DNA of 37,031 bases from Deltaproteobacteria bacterium (GCA_022340515.1 JAJDNT010000098.1:1-37031), one strand, 5' to 3'. Positions 31,508 through 37,031 are shown, counted from the stretch's first letter. Notes: generated by a model not told the origin, from the sequence alone. A program made the numbers and translations.

Positions 31508-31903
31508 ATGGATCTCGTCTTATCCAAAGAAGCGATAGATAACATCATCAATGTTCTCGATGAAGATCTTCTCCGGGCTGGGGCTGACTGCGTTCTCTTA
31601 GTTGACCGCTCAGGCAACCTTATTGTGAATCGGGGCGATCCCGCTAATCTCGACGTTGTAGCTCTGGCCGCACTCTCAGCCGCCAATTTTGGTGCCACCG
31701 CCGAAATTGCCAAGCTAATCGGAGAAGATGACTTCGCCCTTCTCTTCCATAAAGGCAAGAACGAGAATATTCATTTCACCAAGGTGGGCAAGGGTTTCAT
31801 CCTCATCACTCTTTTTGGTAAGGAAGTCTCCCTGGGGCTCATTAGATTGAACACCGCTAAAGTCACCGAAACTCTGATACCTATTCTGGGCGGAGAGCAG
31901 TAA
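31508..31903 (+). CDS. Roadblock/LC7-domain protein (MglB-like)
   Basis: This 131-residue protein has the roadblock/LC7 fold: helix IDNIINVLDEDLLRAGADCVLLVDRSGNLIVNRG, then VVALAALSAANFGATAEIAKLIGE, a strand block LLFHKGKNENIHFTKVGKGFILITLFG, and a last helix ending EQ. In Myxococcus, MglB of this fold is the GTPase-activating partner of MglA. The start lies about 90 bp after a moderate promoter. Its stop is 2 bp before the GTPase start, so the two are coupled. A role as regulator of that GTPase is a strong inference from family and position. Confidence 0.93.
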   Translation: MDLVLSKEAIDNIINVLDEDLLRAGADCVLLVDRSGNLIVNRGDPANLDVVALAALSAANFGATAEIAKLIGEDDFALLFHKGKNENIHFTKVGKGFILITLFGKEVSLGLIRLNTAKVTETLIPILGGEQ

Positions 31904-31905
31904 CT

Positions 31906-32517
31906 GTGTCGTTTATTGATCTGAGTAAAAATGAGGTACAATGTAAAGTCGTCTATTATGGACCTGGGCGAGGTGGTAAAACTACCAACCTCCTTTACTT
32001 GCACCAGGCTATGACCGACTCCGTTCGCGGCAAGATGGTCACTATCGATACCAAGGGCGATCGTACTCTGTTTTTTGATTTCCTCCCCTTGGCACTAGGC
32101 AAGATTCAGGGACTGAGCATCAAGATCCAGCTCTACACCGTTCCTGGACAGGTCATGTACAATGCCACCCGCAAACTCGTCCTTAAGGGTGTAGATGGCA
32201 TTGTTTTCGTGGCGGATTCTCTAAAGGTTCAAAAAGAAAAAAACATAGAAAGCCTCGCAAACCTGAGACAAAATCTTGCCGAGGACAACTTAGACATGAA
32301 GGACATCCCTCTAGTGCTTCAATTCAATAAGAGGGATCTTGGCGGTTCCAATATTCCCATCCTCACCGTTGAGGAGATGCAGGAAGACCTGAACTCTGAA
32401 CTTCAGGTTCCGTGGTTCAGCGGCAGTGCATTAAAGGGCGACGGTGTGTTTGAGACTCTGAGAGAGATCAGCAAGCGCACAGTCAAATATGTAAGCCGTA
32501 AACTTTTATCTCGCTAG
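31906..32517 (+). CDS. MglA-type small GTPase
   Basis: This 203-residue Ras-like GTPase starts at GTG, 2 bp after the roadblock stop. Its P-loop is GPGRGGKT (19-26). The DxxG position reads TVPGQ (78-82), with Thr in place of Asp, a hallmark of the MglA family. The base-recognition motif is NKRD (141-144), and SGSALKGDG supplies the G5 region. In Myxococcus, MglA sets cell polarity and motility by switching between GTP and GDP states. Here it probably acts with the upstream roadblock protein, in an operon that continues with an acidic CheW-like protein and a TPR-pseudokinase. I use the family name rather than the symbol mglA, as the role here is not shown. Confidence 0.95.
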   Translation: MSFIDLSKNEVQCKVVYYGPGRGGKTTNLLYLHQAMTDSVRGKMVTIDTKGDRTLFFDFLPLALGKIQGLSIKIQLYTVPGQVMYNATRKLVLKGVDGIVFVADSLKVQKEKNIESLANLRQNLAEDNLDMKDIPLVLQFNKRDLGGSNIPILTVEEMQEDLNSELQVPWFSGSALKGDGVFETLREISKRTVKYVSRKLLSR

Positions 32518-32546
32518 TAACCCTCAGTTGCCAGAAGGAGGGGCAC

Positions 32547-34940
32547 ATGGATTTGACCGACGACCCCTTGGCTGGAGTCGACGCCAGTGAACTTGAGGCA
32601 GATATTGATAGAGCAATCGATGAACTCTTCGTAAAAAAGGGAGAGGCAAAAGAGCCATCGATTGCCAAACCGGGAGAGCCCGCCGAAAAACCAGTAGAAG
32701 AGCCAAAGGATGAACCAGCGGAAGAAGCTGTTCACGAGGAACCATCTGAGCTCGCAGATGATACTCTGGCTGACCTGAAAGAGAGCCTTCTTACCCTAGA
32801 TTGGGAAATCACCCCCGAGTCCATCAAGGCATTTGAAAAAGAGCTTCAGCTTGTAAGCGACAAAGTGAGTGACGACCGTCACTGTATGGCAGTTATCAAA
32901 ATGGCCTTGGGCGTTCTCCAATACCTGCGAGCTGCAAAGGAATCAGCCGCACCTATTTCCATTCAGTTTTTACACGGCGCCATACGAGGTCTTGACATTT
33001 TTGTGCGAGAGCCTGCACCTACAGAGGCTGAGCGCAACGAAGTAATGGACAAATTGCTCGGCCAGTTCAGGCGAGTAAAAGCTGAAATCCAGCGGATGCA
33101 ACCCCGGGAAGCTCCTGAAAAGGCGGAGGAACCTCCAGCAGTTGAACCTGTCGTTGAGCCAGAGCCAACTGAGGAGCCCATATTAGAGGAAATCACCGCT
33201 GAGGAGCCTGTGCTTGAAGACTTGGCCGAAGAAGAAGCACCGGCCTTTGAAGAGATCGTTGAAGACGAGACTATTTTGGAGGAGCTTCCTGTGGAAACAG
33301 AGATAGCGGCGGCTCCCCCCGAAGAGGAACCTCTAATAGAAGAGCTGGTGGGAGAGGAACCAGTCGTAGAAGAGCTGCCACCGGAAGAACTGGATTTCAT
33401 GGCGGACCTCGAAGAAGAGCCCACTTTGGCAGAACCACCTGAAGAAGAGCCAACCCTGGAGGATATAACTGCTGAAGAGTTGACCTTGGAGGAAGTTGCG
33501 CCAGAGGAGCCGACACTGGCTGCCGACCTTGAAGAAGAGCCAACCCTGGAGGATATAACTGCTGAAGAGTTGACCTTGGAGGAAGTTGCGCCAGAGGAGC
33601 CGACACTGGCTGCCGACCTCGAAGAAGAACCCATTCTGGCAGAACCACCTGAGGAAGAAGTTAGCCTGACACTAGATCTCGAGGAGGAGCCCTCATTCGA
33701 AGAGTTGTTTGATGAAGAACCGATCAGCGAGGAAGTTGCCGCAGAAGAACCTCCTCTTGCCCCAGTTATAGAAGAAGAACCGGATATAGAAGAAGTATTC
33801 GGGGAAGAATTGGGATTTGAAGAACTTCCGGAGGAGGAGCCGGCTCTGGAGTTCATGGAGGAGCCCGAGGAAGTTACTCCTGTAGCTGCCGTGGCAGTGG
33901 GAGAAGTTCCGGCAGCTTTGCAAAATATCGTCCAGGAAGCAAAGAGCCAGAGTGGTCAGCTATCGGAGGCGGTGGCCGCTCTCGCGCAGGAGACTGAAGA
34001 CTTTTTTGGCCGTATTATGAAAGCCATGGCTGGCAAGCCTGCTCTGGCGAAATTAGAGCAGTATTTTGGTTCCGCCCACAATAGCGTGGAAGCCAAGCTT
34101 TCAGAGGCTCGGCGGTTGTCCGAAAATTTGCTTGAAACCTTGGCCCAACTTGAGCAAAACCTTGGTCAGCAGCAGGTGGGGACTATTGCGCCCGATGCCC
34201 AGGCGGCAATCAGTTCTCAGGTCAAAACAATACGGAATGCCATCGAAAATATAAGCCAGGCTACCTCCAAACTACAGCAGGGTCTCACCGGTGAGGCCAG
34301 GGCCCCATCGGCGGATTACCAGGGTATAGCCTTCAAGGACGCCCGCGCGGAAACAGAGGAGTTTTCTTTTGAGCCCGATGACCTTATGGAAGGTTTGGAT
34401 TCCGAACCAGTGCTGGATCTGGTGGAGGAGGTTACTGCTGAACCCCTGAGGCCGACACCAGGCACCCTGGCCACCATATATTTAGCTGATGTGGCTAACA
34501 ATACACTGGGAGTACCCACGGAGGCTGTGGCCAATGTCTTCAAGATTTCCAAGGGCAAAGCAAAGGCTATCCGCAAAAGAGGTTACGTCAGACTGACTGA
34601 TTTCAAGTCCGCTTTTCGCAGCATTAAAAGGGGAATTACCGGCCCGCTCGCGGAGTTGAAGCCCAAAGATCTAAAGAAGATACAGTTCCCCCTTGTCGGT
34701 CTGAGTCCGGAGATTCTTGGCAGCGATGACACCGAGGCAGTAGCCCCAGTCAGAGGCATCGTCCTACTGAGCACCGGTCAGCGCCATGGTGCTTTGCTAA
34801 CTGATGAAGTTATGCAAAGGACACCCTATGACGTCAAGGGCTATCAAAAGGCTGGACTACCAGGAGAGGTGAGTGGCACGGCCACTATCGAAGGGGACTT
34901 CGAGATCAACGTTATTGATCCGGACTACGTACTGTCTTAA
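32547..34940 (+). CDS. Large acidic-repeat protein with CheW-like C-terminal domain
   Basis: This 797-residue protein starts at ATG 32547, with AGGAGG upstream. Regions in order: an N-terminal short acidic stretch; a helical domain (about 70-150, DTLADLKESLLTLDWEITPESIKAF) of HPt-like size; a very acidic, low-complexity region (about 192-450) of EEPTLEE-type repeats; a coiled coil (about 455-600); and a C-terminal domain (about 640-797) that resembles CheW or the CheA regulatory domain (IYLADVANNTLGVPTEAV, RGIVLLSTGQRHGALLTDEV and SGTATIEGDFEINVIDPDYVL). The CheW assignment is by pattern and is moderate. The acidic part contains a near-perfect 90-bp tandem duplication. The position between a GTPase pair and a pseudokinase suggests a signalling scaffold. 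Confidence 0.8.
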   Translation: MDLTDDPLAGVDASELEADIDRAIDELFVKKGEAKEPSIAKPGEPAEKPVEEPKDEPAEEAVHEEPSELADDTLADLKESLLTLDWEITPESIKAFEKELQLVSDKVSDDRHCMAVIKMALGVLQYLRAAKESAAPISIQFLHGAIRGLDIFVREPAPTEAERNEVMDKLLGQFRRVKAEIQRMQPREAPEKAEEPPAVEPVVEPEPTEEPILEEITAEEPVLEDLAEEEAPAFEEIVEDETILEELPVETEIAAAPPEEEPLIEELVGEEPVVEELPPEELDFMADLEEEPTLAEPPEEEPTLEDITAEELTLEEVAPEEPTLAADLEEEPTLEDITAEELTLEEVAPEEPTLAADLEEEPILAEPPEEEVSLTLDLEEEPSFEELFDEEPISEEVAAEEPPLAPVIEEEPDIEEVFGEELGFEELPEEEPALEFMEEPEEVTPVAAVAVGEVPAALQNIVQEAKSQSGQLSEAVAALAQETEDFFGRIMKAMAGKPALAKLEQYFGSAHNSVEAKLSEARRLSENLLETLAQLEQNLGQQQVGTIAPDAQAAISSQVKTIRNAIENISQATSKLQQGLTGEARAPSADYQGIAFKDARAETEEFSFEPDDLMEGLDSEPVLDLVEEVTAEPLRPTPGTLATIYLADVANNTLGVPTEAVANVFKISKGKAKAIRKRGYVRLTDFKSAFRSIKRGITGPLAELKPKDLKKIQFPLVGLSPEILGSDDTEAVAPVRGIVLLSTGQRHGALLTDEVMQRTPYDVKGYQKAGLPGEVSGTATIEGDFEINVIDPDYVLS
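33441..33620. repeat. Tandem 90-bp direct duplication in the acidic-repeat gene
   Basis: Bases 33441-33530 and 33531-33620 differ only at their last position (T/C). Each encodes 30 residues starting EEEPTLEDITAEEL (residues 299-328 and 329-358). The flanks DLEEEPTLAEPPEEE and DLEEEPILAEPPEEE repeat as well, so copy number may vary between relatives. Confidence 0.95.
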
Positions 34941-35010
34941 GCCGCCGCCGGCTTCAATGAACAACCTCTTCTCGTGCTAGGAAAACAGTTGCCCGGGGTC
35001 TTCTCTGACC

Positions 35011-37031
35011 ATGCAAGCAAATATCAGTAACAATTCCAGCGCCAATGAGTTAGCAGAGATCCAAGAGAAGGTCAACGAGGCTGAACTATACCTCACCCAG
35101 GGCCTCTTCGAGGAAGCTCGCCAGATTTACCAAGAGATTTTGAACGAGCTCGGATCTCTCGCAGATAAGGGTGCTGCCGATCCTGCCCTCCTTCAATCCT
35201 ACAAGAGCCAGCGCACATTCATTCAGGAACAGCTAGCCACTATTGACCGTCAGGAGGCGGAATTCCACGGTCTCGCTCCAGAGGCCCCGGCAGAACAGGC
35301 CGCTGCACCTCAAAAAGAAGAAGGGAACGCTGCTTTCAATCGCGGACAAGCCTTTTTGGACATAGGCATGTTTGCCGATGCCATCAACGAATTTCAACGG
35401 GCTGCCGAGTTAGGTTTCCAACCCACTGAATGCTCTCTCCAGATTGGCAAGGCCTATCTCCAACTAGGGCAGCACGGCGAAGGAATTCGGGTGCTAAAAC
35501 AAACTTACAAGCGTAAGGATTTGAGCGACACTGAAAGAAATCTGGTGCTTGCCCAGTTGGCGGTGGGCTTTGAAACAGCTGGGGACAAGGAAGAAGCCTT
35601 GCAACTTTACCAAAAGCTTGCCGAGCGGGATCCCAAGCATTTAACCGCAGCCAAGAAAGTCAAGAGTTTGGCAAAGGAGGGTGACCGTTATTATTTCAAC
35701 ATGGTGAAGCTGCACCTGAAAAATAAGCAGTTTTCCAAGGCCATTAAAACCCTTCGTCAAATGGAGAAGGAAAACCAGGCTTCTGTTGCTGAGGTCATGC
35801 CCCTTTATGAGCAAATATTAGAGAAAGATCCTGGAAACAAAGAGGCAATTGAACAGATTACTAGTATTTACGGCCAGATGCTTGACAATGGAGGTGGAGG
35901 AGTCGATACCCGGCTAAAGTTCGCTCGCCTCTTACTTCGAGCCGGTGAATTCGACAGGGCAGCCAACGAATATTTAGAAGTAATGCTGGAGGACACCCCT
36001 TACAAAATAACCGCCCTAAACGAGTTGGGCGAGGCTCTGTTGGAAAGACAGGACTATGACCGTATTTTGGAGCTCCTCGAAGACGCCGTTCCCTGGGTGG
36101 AGTCCCTAGACCCCGGACCTGAAACTCTAAACTATTATGTGCTCCTTGGAAAGGCGTGTGAAAGGAAAAGCCTGTATGACCAGGCACGATCCTACTTCCA
36201 ACGAGCTGCCGAGATTGATCCTACCCATGAAGCAATTAAGGTCAAAGGCGACACTCAGACGGAAGATCCTCTTCTCTCCCGAGGTAAAACCCTCCTCAGG
36301 CTTAGAGTGAATGAAGACATCCAATACCAGATTCAGGAGAAAATCGGCGAGGACACCCTCCATCAGTTTTTCAAGGTCAGAGAGGTTCCAAGCGGGAGCC
36401 TACGCGTCGCCAAATCTCTTTCTCCCGCCCTATCAGCGGAAATTACCGCTAAGGACTTCATGGTGAAGTGGGGTTACGAGCAAGTGAACATGGAAAACCG
36501 CAACATCACCCGAGTCTTAGACGTGGCCGAGAGAGGGAAGCATTATTATCTTATTACCGAGGATTTCGACAGTACCCTGGATGACCTACTCAAAAAGAAA
36601 ACCAGTCTTACCATAAAAGAGGCGGTTCGTCTGGCCCGAGCCCTTCTTAATGGTTTAGCCTATGCTCATTCCCATCGTGGCTCTGATGACACCCTGAGAA
36701 AGATATTTCACCTCGGCCTCAATCCCAAGCGGATACTAATTAGGGGCGAGTTGAGCAACGCCAAGATAGCTGATTTTGGCCTCATTTCCAAGTTGGGCAT
36801 TGAGCTGGGTTTTACTCTGGACTATAAGGAACTTTCTGCTTACGAACTTACCTACATGGCACCTGAATTATTCAACCGTGCGCCCGCCCGCATGCCTGAC
36901 AAGATGAAGCAGGCCGCAGATCTATATTCCTTCGGTCTGGTTTTTTATCGAGCCCTTACAGGCAAGGTGCCCTTTGAAGGACCATCGCCGGAGGACTTCA
37001 AAAAACAGCACAACGAGCAGTATCCCGTACC
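35011..37031 (+). CDS. TPR protein fused to a pseudokinase-like Ser/Thr kinase domain (3' end outside window)
   Basis: The reading frame is open from ATG 35011 to the window edge (673 codons visible), 70 bp after the acidic-repeat gene. Residues ~15-430 hold about nine TPR-like repeats, e.g. LFEEARQIYQEIL, MFADAINEFQRAAELG, DKEEALQLYQKLAERDP and YDQARSYFQRAAEIDP. Residues ~445 onward have a kinase-like fold: VAK with Lys468, HLGLNPKRIL (567-576) where HRDLKPEN should be, DFG (588-590), and MAPELF. The catalytic Asp is Gly569, the metal Asn is Arg574, and no Gly-rich loop is visible. It is thus probably a pseudokinase used as a binding module. Cytoplasmic; no signal or anchor in the visible part. 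It continues the roadblock-GTPase-CheW-like operon. Confidence 0.9.
   Translation, partial: MQANISNNSSANELAEIQEKVNEAELYLTQGLFEEARQIYQEILNELGSLADKGAADPALLQSYKSQRTFIQEQLATIDRQEAEFHGLAPEAPAEQAAAPQKEEGNAAFNRGQAFLDIGMFADAINEFQRAAELGFQPTECSLQIGKAYLQLGQHGEGIRVLKQTYKRKDLSDTERNLVLAQLAVGFETAGDKEEALQLYQKLAERDPKHLTAAKKVKSLAKEGDRYYFNMVKLHLKNKQFSKAIKTLRQMEKENQASVAEVMPLYEQILEKDPGNKEAIEQITSIYGQMLDNGGGGVDTRLKFARLLLRAGEFDRAANEYLEVMLEDTPYKITALNELGEALLERQDYDRILELLEDAVPWVESLDPGPETLNYYVLLGKACERKSLYDQARSYFQRAAEIDPTHEAIKVKGDTQTEDPLLSRGKTLLRLRVNEDIQYQIQEKIGEDTLHQFFKVREVPSGSLRVAKSLSPALSAEITAKDFMVKWGYEQVNMENRNITRVLDVAERGKHYYLITEDFDSTLDDLLKKKTSLTIKEAVRLARALLNGLAYAHSHRGSDDTLRKIFHLGLNPKRILIRGELSNAKIADFGLISKLGIELGFTLDYKELSAYELTYMAPELFNRAPARMPDKMKQAADLYSFGLVFYRALTGKVPFEGPSPEDFKKQHNEQYPV

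Follow-up and report, generated by a model that had tools for sequence, protein, structure and literature searches.

The window, a stretch of 37,031 nucleotides, is contig C31 of the genome of an uncultured host (G000). Its last part, from position 31508 to the contig end at 37031, carries four open reading frames (ORFs), all on the + strand and separated by gaps of 2, 29 and 70 bp (Table 1). The same ORFs, strand and gaps had been given in an earlier note on this DNA, which had named the first two products as a roadblock protein and an MglA-type GTPase; both the Pfam families and the nearest PDB structures agree with these names. The host was judged to belong to the phylum Desulfobacterota/Thermodesulfobacteriota from the named carriers of the nearest relatives. 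A scan for promoters and terminators gave signal at chance level.

Table 1. Genes of the unit and parts of the adaptor, in positions of the window
Feature	Position	Strand	Details
MglB-type roadblock/LC7 protein, putative GAP of MglA	31508..31903	+	131 aa; Pfam Robl_LC7 1e-10
MglA-type small GTPase, group 1	31906..32517	+	203 aa, GTG start; Pfam Ras/Arf family 5e-7
Adaptor/scaffold, acidic	32547..34940	+	797 aa; no Pfam family; homologues in 40/60 relatives
Linear motif LEADIDRAIDELFV, aa 16-29 of adaptor	32592..32633	+	1-4 copies in homologues
N-terminal five-helix domain (N-domain), aa 75-184 of adaptor	32769..33098	+	AF2 pLDDT 87; invariant Trp
Acidic Glu/Pro-rich linker, aa 193-454 of adaptor	33123..33908	+	translation
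Helical, probably coiled-coil segment, aa 455-580 of adaptor	33909..34286	+	sequence alignment
CheW-like C-terminal domain, aa 643-795 of adaptor	34473..34931	+	AF2, Foldseek, hhalign, Pfam in homologues
TPR-pseudokinase, open at contig end	35011..37029	+	673 aa here; Pfam TPR + Pkinase 1.5e-23

Comparison with the PDB showed that the first protein is nearest to the MglB chains of the gliding-motility system (E 1e-21 over residues 3-126) and that the second is nearest to the MglA structures of Myxococcus xanthus, with which it aligns almost end to end (E 5e-61); both proteins are closest to those of Myxococcus and Thermus. The GTPase carries the P-loop GPGRGGKTT, the Arg53 finger, TVPGQ (Thr78, Gln82) and NKRD, and R53, T78, Q82 and N141-K142-R143-D144 are invariant among 17 aligned relatives. 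The hallmarks of group-1 MglA (the P-loop, an Arg finger beside the G2 Thr, Thr replacing Asp in TVPGQ, and NKxD) are present, as are those of MglB, namely the Roadblock/LC7 fold and adjacency to mglA, and a GAP role of the latter is putative. The pair is of the known MglA/MglB kind. A single copy of MglA, the one at this locus, was found in the host genome.

The third gene encodes an adaptor that consists of a linear motif, a helical N-domain, an acidic linker, a helical segment and a CheW-like C-terminal domain, and in which Pfam matched neither a HATPase (P4) nor a receiver (Response_reg) domain. Of 84 homologues, 61 have the core of the linear motif, [ILVM]DxLF, on the upstream side of the N-domain, compared to 0.3% of shuffles, and the motif was specific to the adaptor family among the ORFs searched. 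In its [IL]DxLF form it looks similar to LSQxEIDALL, the N-terminal CheY-binding motif of FliM. The N-domain matched no Pfam family. Its best three Foldseek matches were CheA P1 domains (probability 0.98-0.99, TM 0.56-0.58), but with an E value of 0.2, and hhalign against local Hpt domains gave E 1.7e-4 at a probability of 50%, with controls no better than 0.018. No His is conserved in the alignment of N-domain homologues, implying that this is not a phosphotransfer domain, and a phospho-histidine role was ruled out on this ground. The N-domain is a new family, which we class, with moderate confidence, as CheA-P1-like; it is without the phospho-histidine.

Short paralogues of the N-domain that have no CheW-like part were seen in the host genome (L056:6497-7138, on G000:C281), where the neighbour is an FHA/cNMP-binding protein, and at G010:C1:3604064-3604495, adjoining a second MglA. 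The linker varies in length among relatives, the homologues differing greatly in size. It contains an exact internal repeat, EEEPTLEDITAEELTLEEVAPEEPTLAADL, in two copies (window 33420-33650), and its GAG/GAA runs produce, as a side effect, a long serine-rich ORF (32963-33856) on the other strand. The helical segment gave weak Pfam matches, to coiled-coil families only.

A Pfam and NCBIfam scan of the window's adaptor itself yielded nothing useful, and a PDB sequence search with adaptor profiles did not find CheA or CheW; the likeness to CheW emerged solely when profiles were compared with profiles and folds with folds, and from the Pfam matches of some homologues. AF2 modelled the last ~155 residues with a mean pLDDT of 85, and the top 18 Foldseek matches of this model in the PDB were all CheA (P5 domain included) or CheW chains, with a probability of 1.0. 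The hhalign comparison with local CheW proteins gave E 1.9e-5, shuffled and reversed controls never falling below 0.076, and Pfam CheW was matched directly in 6 of 33 adaptor homologues. These results indicate that the C-terminal domain, as modelled, has the CheW fold, so that the CheW-like end ascribed earlier to the acidic protein is upheld by both AF2/Foldseek and profile-profile comparison. The local CheW alignment contains the NLRG/PVIDL segment, which is missing from the adaptor A2 consensus, and the profile alignment showed that a conserved insertion specific to the family, RGYxxLxDFKxxFRSIKxGxxGxW, stands where CheW has NLRG...PVIDL. Because the segment is absent, the domain is classed as CheW-like and not as CheW, and because it is replaced by an insertion of the family's own, the partner specificity of the domain may differ.

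The fourth protein has TPR repeats at ~aa 20-410 and a kinase fold from aa 439. Its relatives in the same family are 717-751 aa long compared to 673 aa here, suggesting that several tens of residues are lost at the contig end. In the window's family (f1) the VAIK Lys and the DFG Asp are kept and the HRD Asp is lost, and in families f3, f4 and f6 the HRD Asp is kept and the VAIK Lys and DFG Asp are lost; Asn171 is Arg or Lys in 34 of the 34 homologues having that column. The loss of catalytic residues reported earlier for this kinase is thus seen in all homologues, in two different patterns, and the domain, degenerate in every one of them, is by its motifs a conserved pseudokinase. Matches of the kinase domain to phage-defence families were dismissed as generic kinase similarity.

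The adaptor could be a decommissioned CheA, with a P1 lacking its His, the kinase core lost and P5 kept, which together with a second dead kinase would couple the state of chemoreceptors to the Ras-like GTPase by binding only. We regard this as rather unlikely; if true, it would amount to a chemosensory-to-GTPase relay without phosphotransfer of its own.

Synteny was counted over 81 non-redundant MglA loci carrying the adaptor. Most of the genomes compared are metagenome bins; the named-genome scan covers the best 80 loci, and the distribution figures refer to Desulfobacterota. The order MglB-MglA-adaptor is kept in nearly all of the 81 loci, more than chance would give. It is followed by the TPR-kinase protein in 30 loci, by a TPR-PilB protein in 14 (18 counting variants with extra genes) and by nothing classified in 24, some of these at a contig edge, and there are a few other variants. 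The four-gene order is kept across the window's class and MglB-MglA-adaptor across many Desulfobacterota families, Desulfoluna being one culturable carrier. The four families, whose common order in relatives the earlier note had proposed to examine, are therefore syntenic, all four occurring in 30 loci. Of 247 phylum genomes, 60 have the N-domain and 19 the CheW-like domain, the latter always in an N-domain ORF except for a shorter extra copy in three genomes of family f43. In f43 (L190, L191, L192) a second CheW-like protein of ~365 aa is located after MglA, and in L191 several PATAN-domain proteins lie between this protein and the adaptor-TPR-PilB pair. Desulfobacterales also have a second MglA type (L080-L141, many of them; e.g. 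L106, L113), which follows a TPR protein of ~300 aa and lacks an adjacent MglB.

In f1 and f4 the unit sits behind pheST-merR, as would be expected if the four genes were simply co-transcribed and shared no function. However, f3, f6 and other families keep the four genes side by side between quite different flanks, and MglA and the adaptor are jointly absent in 8 of the 8 f5 genomes checked, so that co-transcription as the whole explanation is nearly refuted and we consider it very improbable. G002, a genome of the same genus as the host, gave no MglA match, yet the pseudokinase is retained there and so is the adaptor in truncated form.

The fourth gene of other families encodes a TPR protein fused to MshEN-T2SSE, a PilB-like extension ATPase, with ~780 aa and an intact Walker A. 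Such a covalent union of TPR module and PilB-like ATPase is encoded by many Desulfobacterota within the MglA operon or close to it, and in some Desulfobacterales the TPR-PilB gene lies a few genes downstream of the unit rather than next door. This form of the fourth gene, the N-domain and the [IL]DxLF motif are additions to what had been noted before. When scored with a model of the TPR-PilB module, the TPR modules of f1 and f4 reached 99-127 bits compared to 51-55 for other MglA-linked TPR proteins, and the N-termini of f3 and f6 reached 28-68 bits, approximately the generic TPR range. On these scores, the TPR modules of f1 and f4 are closer to the TPR-PilB module than TPR repeats in general. 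TPR-PilB proteins are spread over both deep halves of the MglA tree and the pseudokinase is confined to one side, suggesting that the PilB fusion is probably the older state. Since the position of the dead kinase is taken in relatives by a pilus-motor ATPase, control of type IV pili is the probable task of the set. A strong PilT match was present in 60 of 60 genomes with the adaptor domain compared to 153 of 187 without it (Fisher p 3e-5, kinship ignored); the co-occurrence is real but weak, as PilT is nearly universal in the phylum.

A different output is conceivable, in which the unit is a polarity module that places non-pilus cargo (chemosensory arrays, a complex of the envelope or the machine for type II secretion, for example) and the pseudokinase lineage has left pilus control. 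Such a reading would suit the presence of a pseudokinase instead of a pilus ATPase in the window's class, the GspG-like pseudopilin gene located directly upstream of the unit in f3, and the scores of the PilB-like ATPase, for which PilB has just a slight lead over GspE, both lying under their cut-offs. However, the f1/f4 TPR module is specifically related to the TPR-PilB one, PilT is found in all adaptor-domain genomes, and pili are what the closest relatives of characterised function control (PMC7519303, PMC3983030), so that we consider a non-pilus role unlikely.

Other PilB-like ATPases were observed in the same genomes. In the sister genome G005 (L236:5138-7306, C193), a chemosensory operon opens with a PilB-like ATPase bearing a C-terminal receiver domain and continues with CheW, CheW, MCP and CheA. 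The start of the same PilB-receiver ATPase is found in the host genome at L247:1-972 (G000:C186), the pieces of the operon being located on the contig edges of C186 and C40. The host genome also has, at L239:4681-6948 (G000:C113), a PilB-like ATPase with an N-terminal GAF domain beside response-regulator genes.

Chemosensory genes border the unit in 6 of the 81 loci, including L053, L058, L078 and L195, a frequency not significantly different from that at the other MglA type; at only 6 loci, they were rejected as a regular part of the unit. The most striking flanks are that of L195, with CheA, PATAN-CheB and CheW with a neighbouring receptor-like gene, and those of L053 and L058, where a response regulator and a CheA-type Hpt protein accompany CheW, with an MCP in L053. 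The host genome has one chemosensory operon (two CheW, MCP, CheA, CheB, CheR), on another contig than the unit. In f6 and f43, PATAN proteins are located within the unit or upstream of it, and in f3 they follow it, in agreement with the association of MglA with PATAN remarked previously (PMC4316618). In f6 (L045, L047, L055, L048, L042), a protein with pentapeptide repeats and PATAN (DUF4388) is located directly upstream of MglB. The earlier proposal that a GTPase switch is joined here to a chemosensory-like scaffold thus holds as to the CheW fold and some chemosensory neighbours, but is weakened by adjacency in 6 of 81 loci only and by the loss of NLRG/PVIDL in favour of the family's own insertion.

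The CheW fold, the P1-like N-domain without His and the chemosensory genes that flank the unit or directly follow it in L053, L058 and L195 could also point to a strictly chemosensory output, with the CheW-like domain in a chemoreceptor array and the receptor state setting the MglA nucleotide directly, without CheY. Most loci, however, have no adjacent chemosensory genes, and the exchange of NLRG/PVIDL for another conserved insertion implies that the domain may bind something else; we consider this output improbable.

The reading that we prefer, with a probability of roughly 0.57, is that the unit is a one-operon GTPase regulator of type IV pili with an adaptor derived from CheA/CheW, that is, a version of the MglA-SgmX-PilB system. 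Against it stand the generic-range TPR scores of f3 and f6, the weakness of the PilT association, the moderate likeness of the N-domain to CheA P1, the loss of MglA in G002, and the chemosensory genes, which seldom adjoin the unit and lie on another contig in the host genome. The genes and their order, the folds, the loss of catalytic residues and the exchange of PilB and pseudokinase between lineages are observed; interactions, a pilus output and a chemosensory input are inferred as follows. MglA would cycle between GTP and GDP, with MglB speeding GTP hydrolysis, and the adaptor would hold MglA and MglB and most likely dock the pair to chemosensory-type partners. In M. xanthus, PilB is localised by SgmX, a TPR protein to which MglA-GTP binds (PMC7519303), and in Bdellovibrio, MglA binds the TPR protein Bd2492 (PMC3983030); by analogy with these two proteins, the TPR arm of the fourth protein should bind, and would probably read, MglA-GTP. 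The effector arm would then place or activate the pilus extension ATPase, in many other lineages the fused PilB-like ATPase, and in the window's class the pseudokinase may act by binding (recruitment or allostery) without phosphorylating.

In Myxococcus, direct contact between SgmX and PilB was undetected, and how MglA-GTP recruits PilB through the TPR protein is open (PMC11580455). From the covalent TPR-PilB-like fusion in or near the MglA operon, the TPR module is predicted to form the direct link, for which the fusion offers a compact test system. By having a pseudokinase where other lineages have PilB, the window's class provides a natural experiment on the requirements of the effector arm. 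The adaptor family, absent from Pfam and with its N-domain in ~1/4 of the sampled phylum genomes, may provide a second chemosensory-GTPase route besides RomR.

In the open-licence literature no paper was found on the adaptor family, on an MglA-linked TPR-PilB or TPR-pseudokinase fusion, or on the four-gene unit, and to that extent the earlier statement that no system of such make-up is described stands. The same GTPase/roadblock pair is known from the M. xanthus system of MglA/MglB with RomR, Frz, SgmX, FrzS and SopA (PMC3441718, PMC7519303, PMC11580455), which the unit further resembles in its TPR effector, its presumed pilus-ATPase output, its multi-domain adaptor with a linker, and its presumed chemosensory links. 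The TPR repeats are common to SgmX and the fourth protein, and MglA-GTP binding by the latter is presumed by analogy. In contrast to the unit, in which all genes form one operon, M. xanthus mglA sits apart from its partner genes (PMC4316618); the TPR module here forms one protein with PilB or with a pseudokinase; and the receiver domain of RomR has no counterpart in the adaptor, which carries P1-like and CheW-like domains. The MglA-Bd2492 hub of Bdellovibrio shares MglA with a TPR partner and an effect on type IV pili, but MglB, a CheW-like adaptor and a kinase or PilB fusion are not described there (PMC3983030). The Streptomyces conservons CvnA-D are likewise four-gene operons with a roadblock protein and an MglA-like GTPase (PMC4316618), but they have a group 2 MglA and the histidine kinase CvnA, neither of which is present here, Pfam showing no histidine kinase among the four genes of the window. 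The adaptor follows the domain order of CheA, with a helical domain of moderate likeness to P1, then a linker, a helical segment and a CheW-like (P5) domain, and differs from it in that the HATPase domain is missing and the N-domain lacks the phospho-histidine. Taken together, the unit is the known MglA/MglB module in a variant form whose adaptor family is undescribed.
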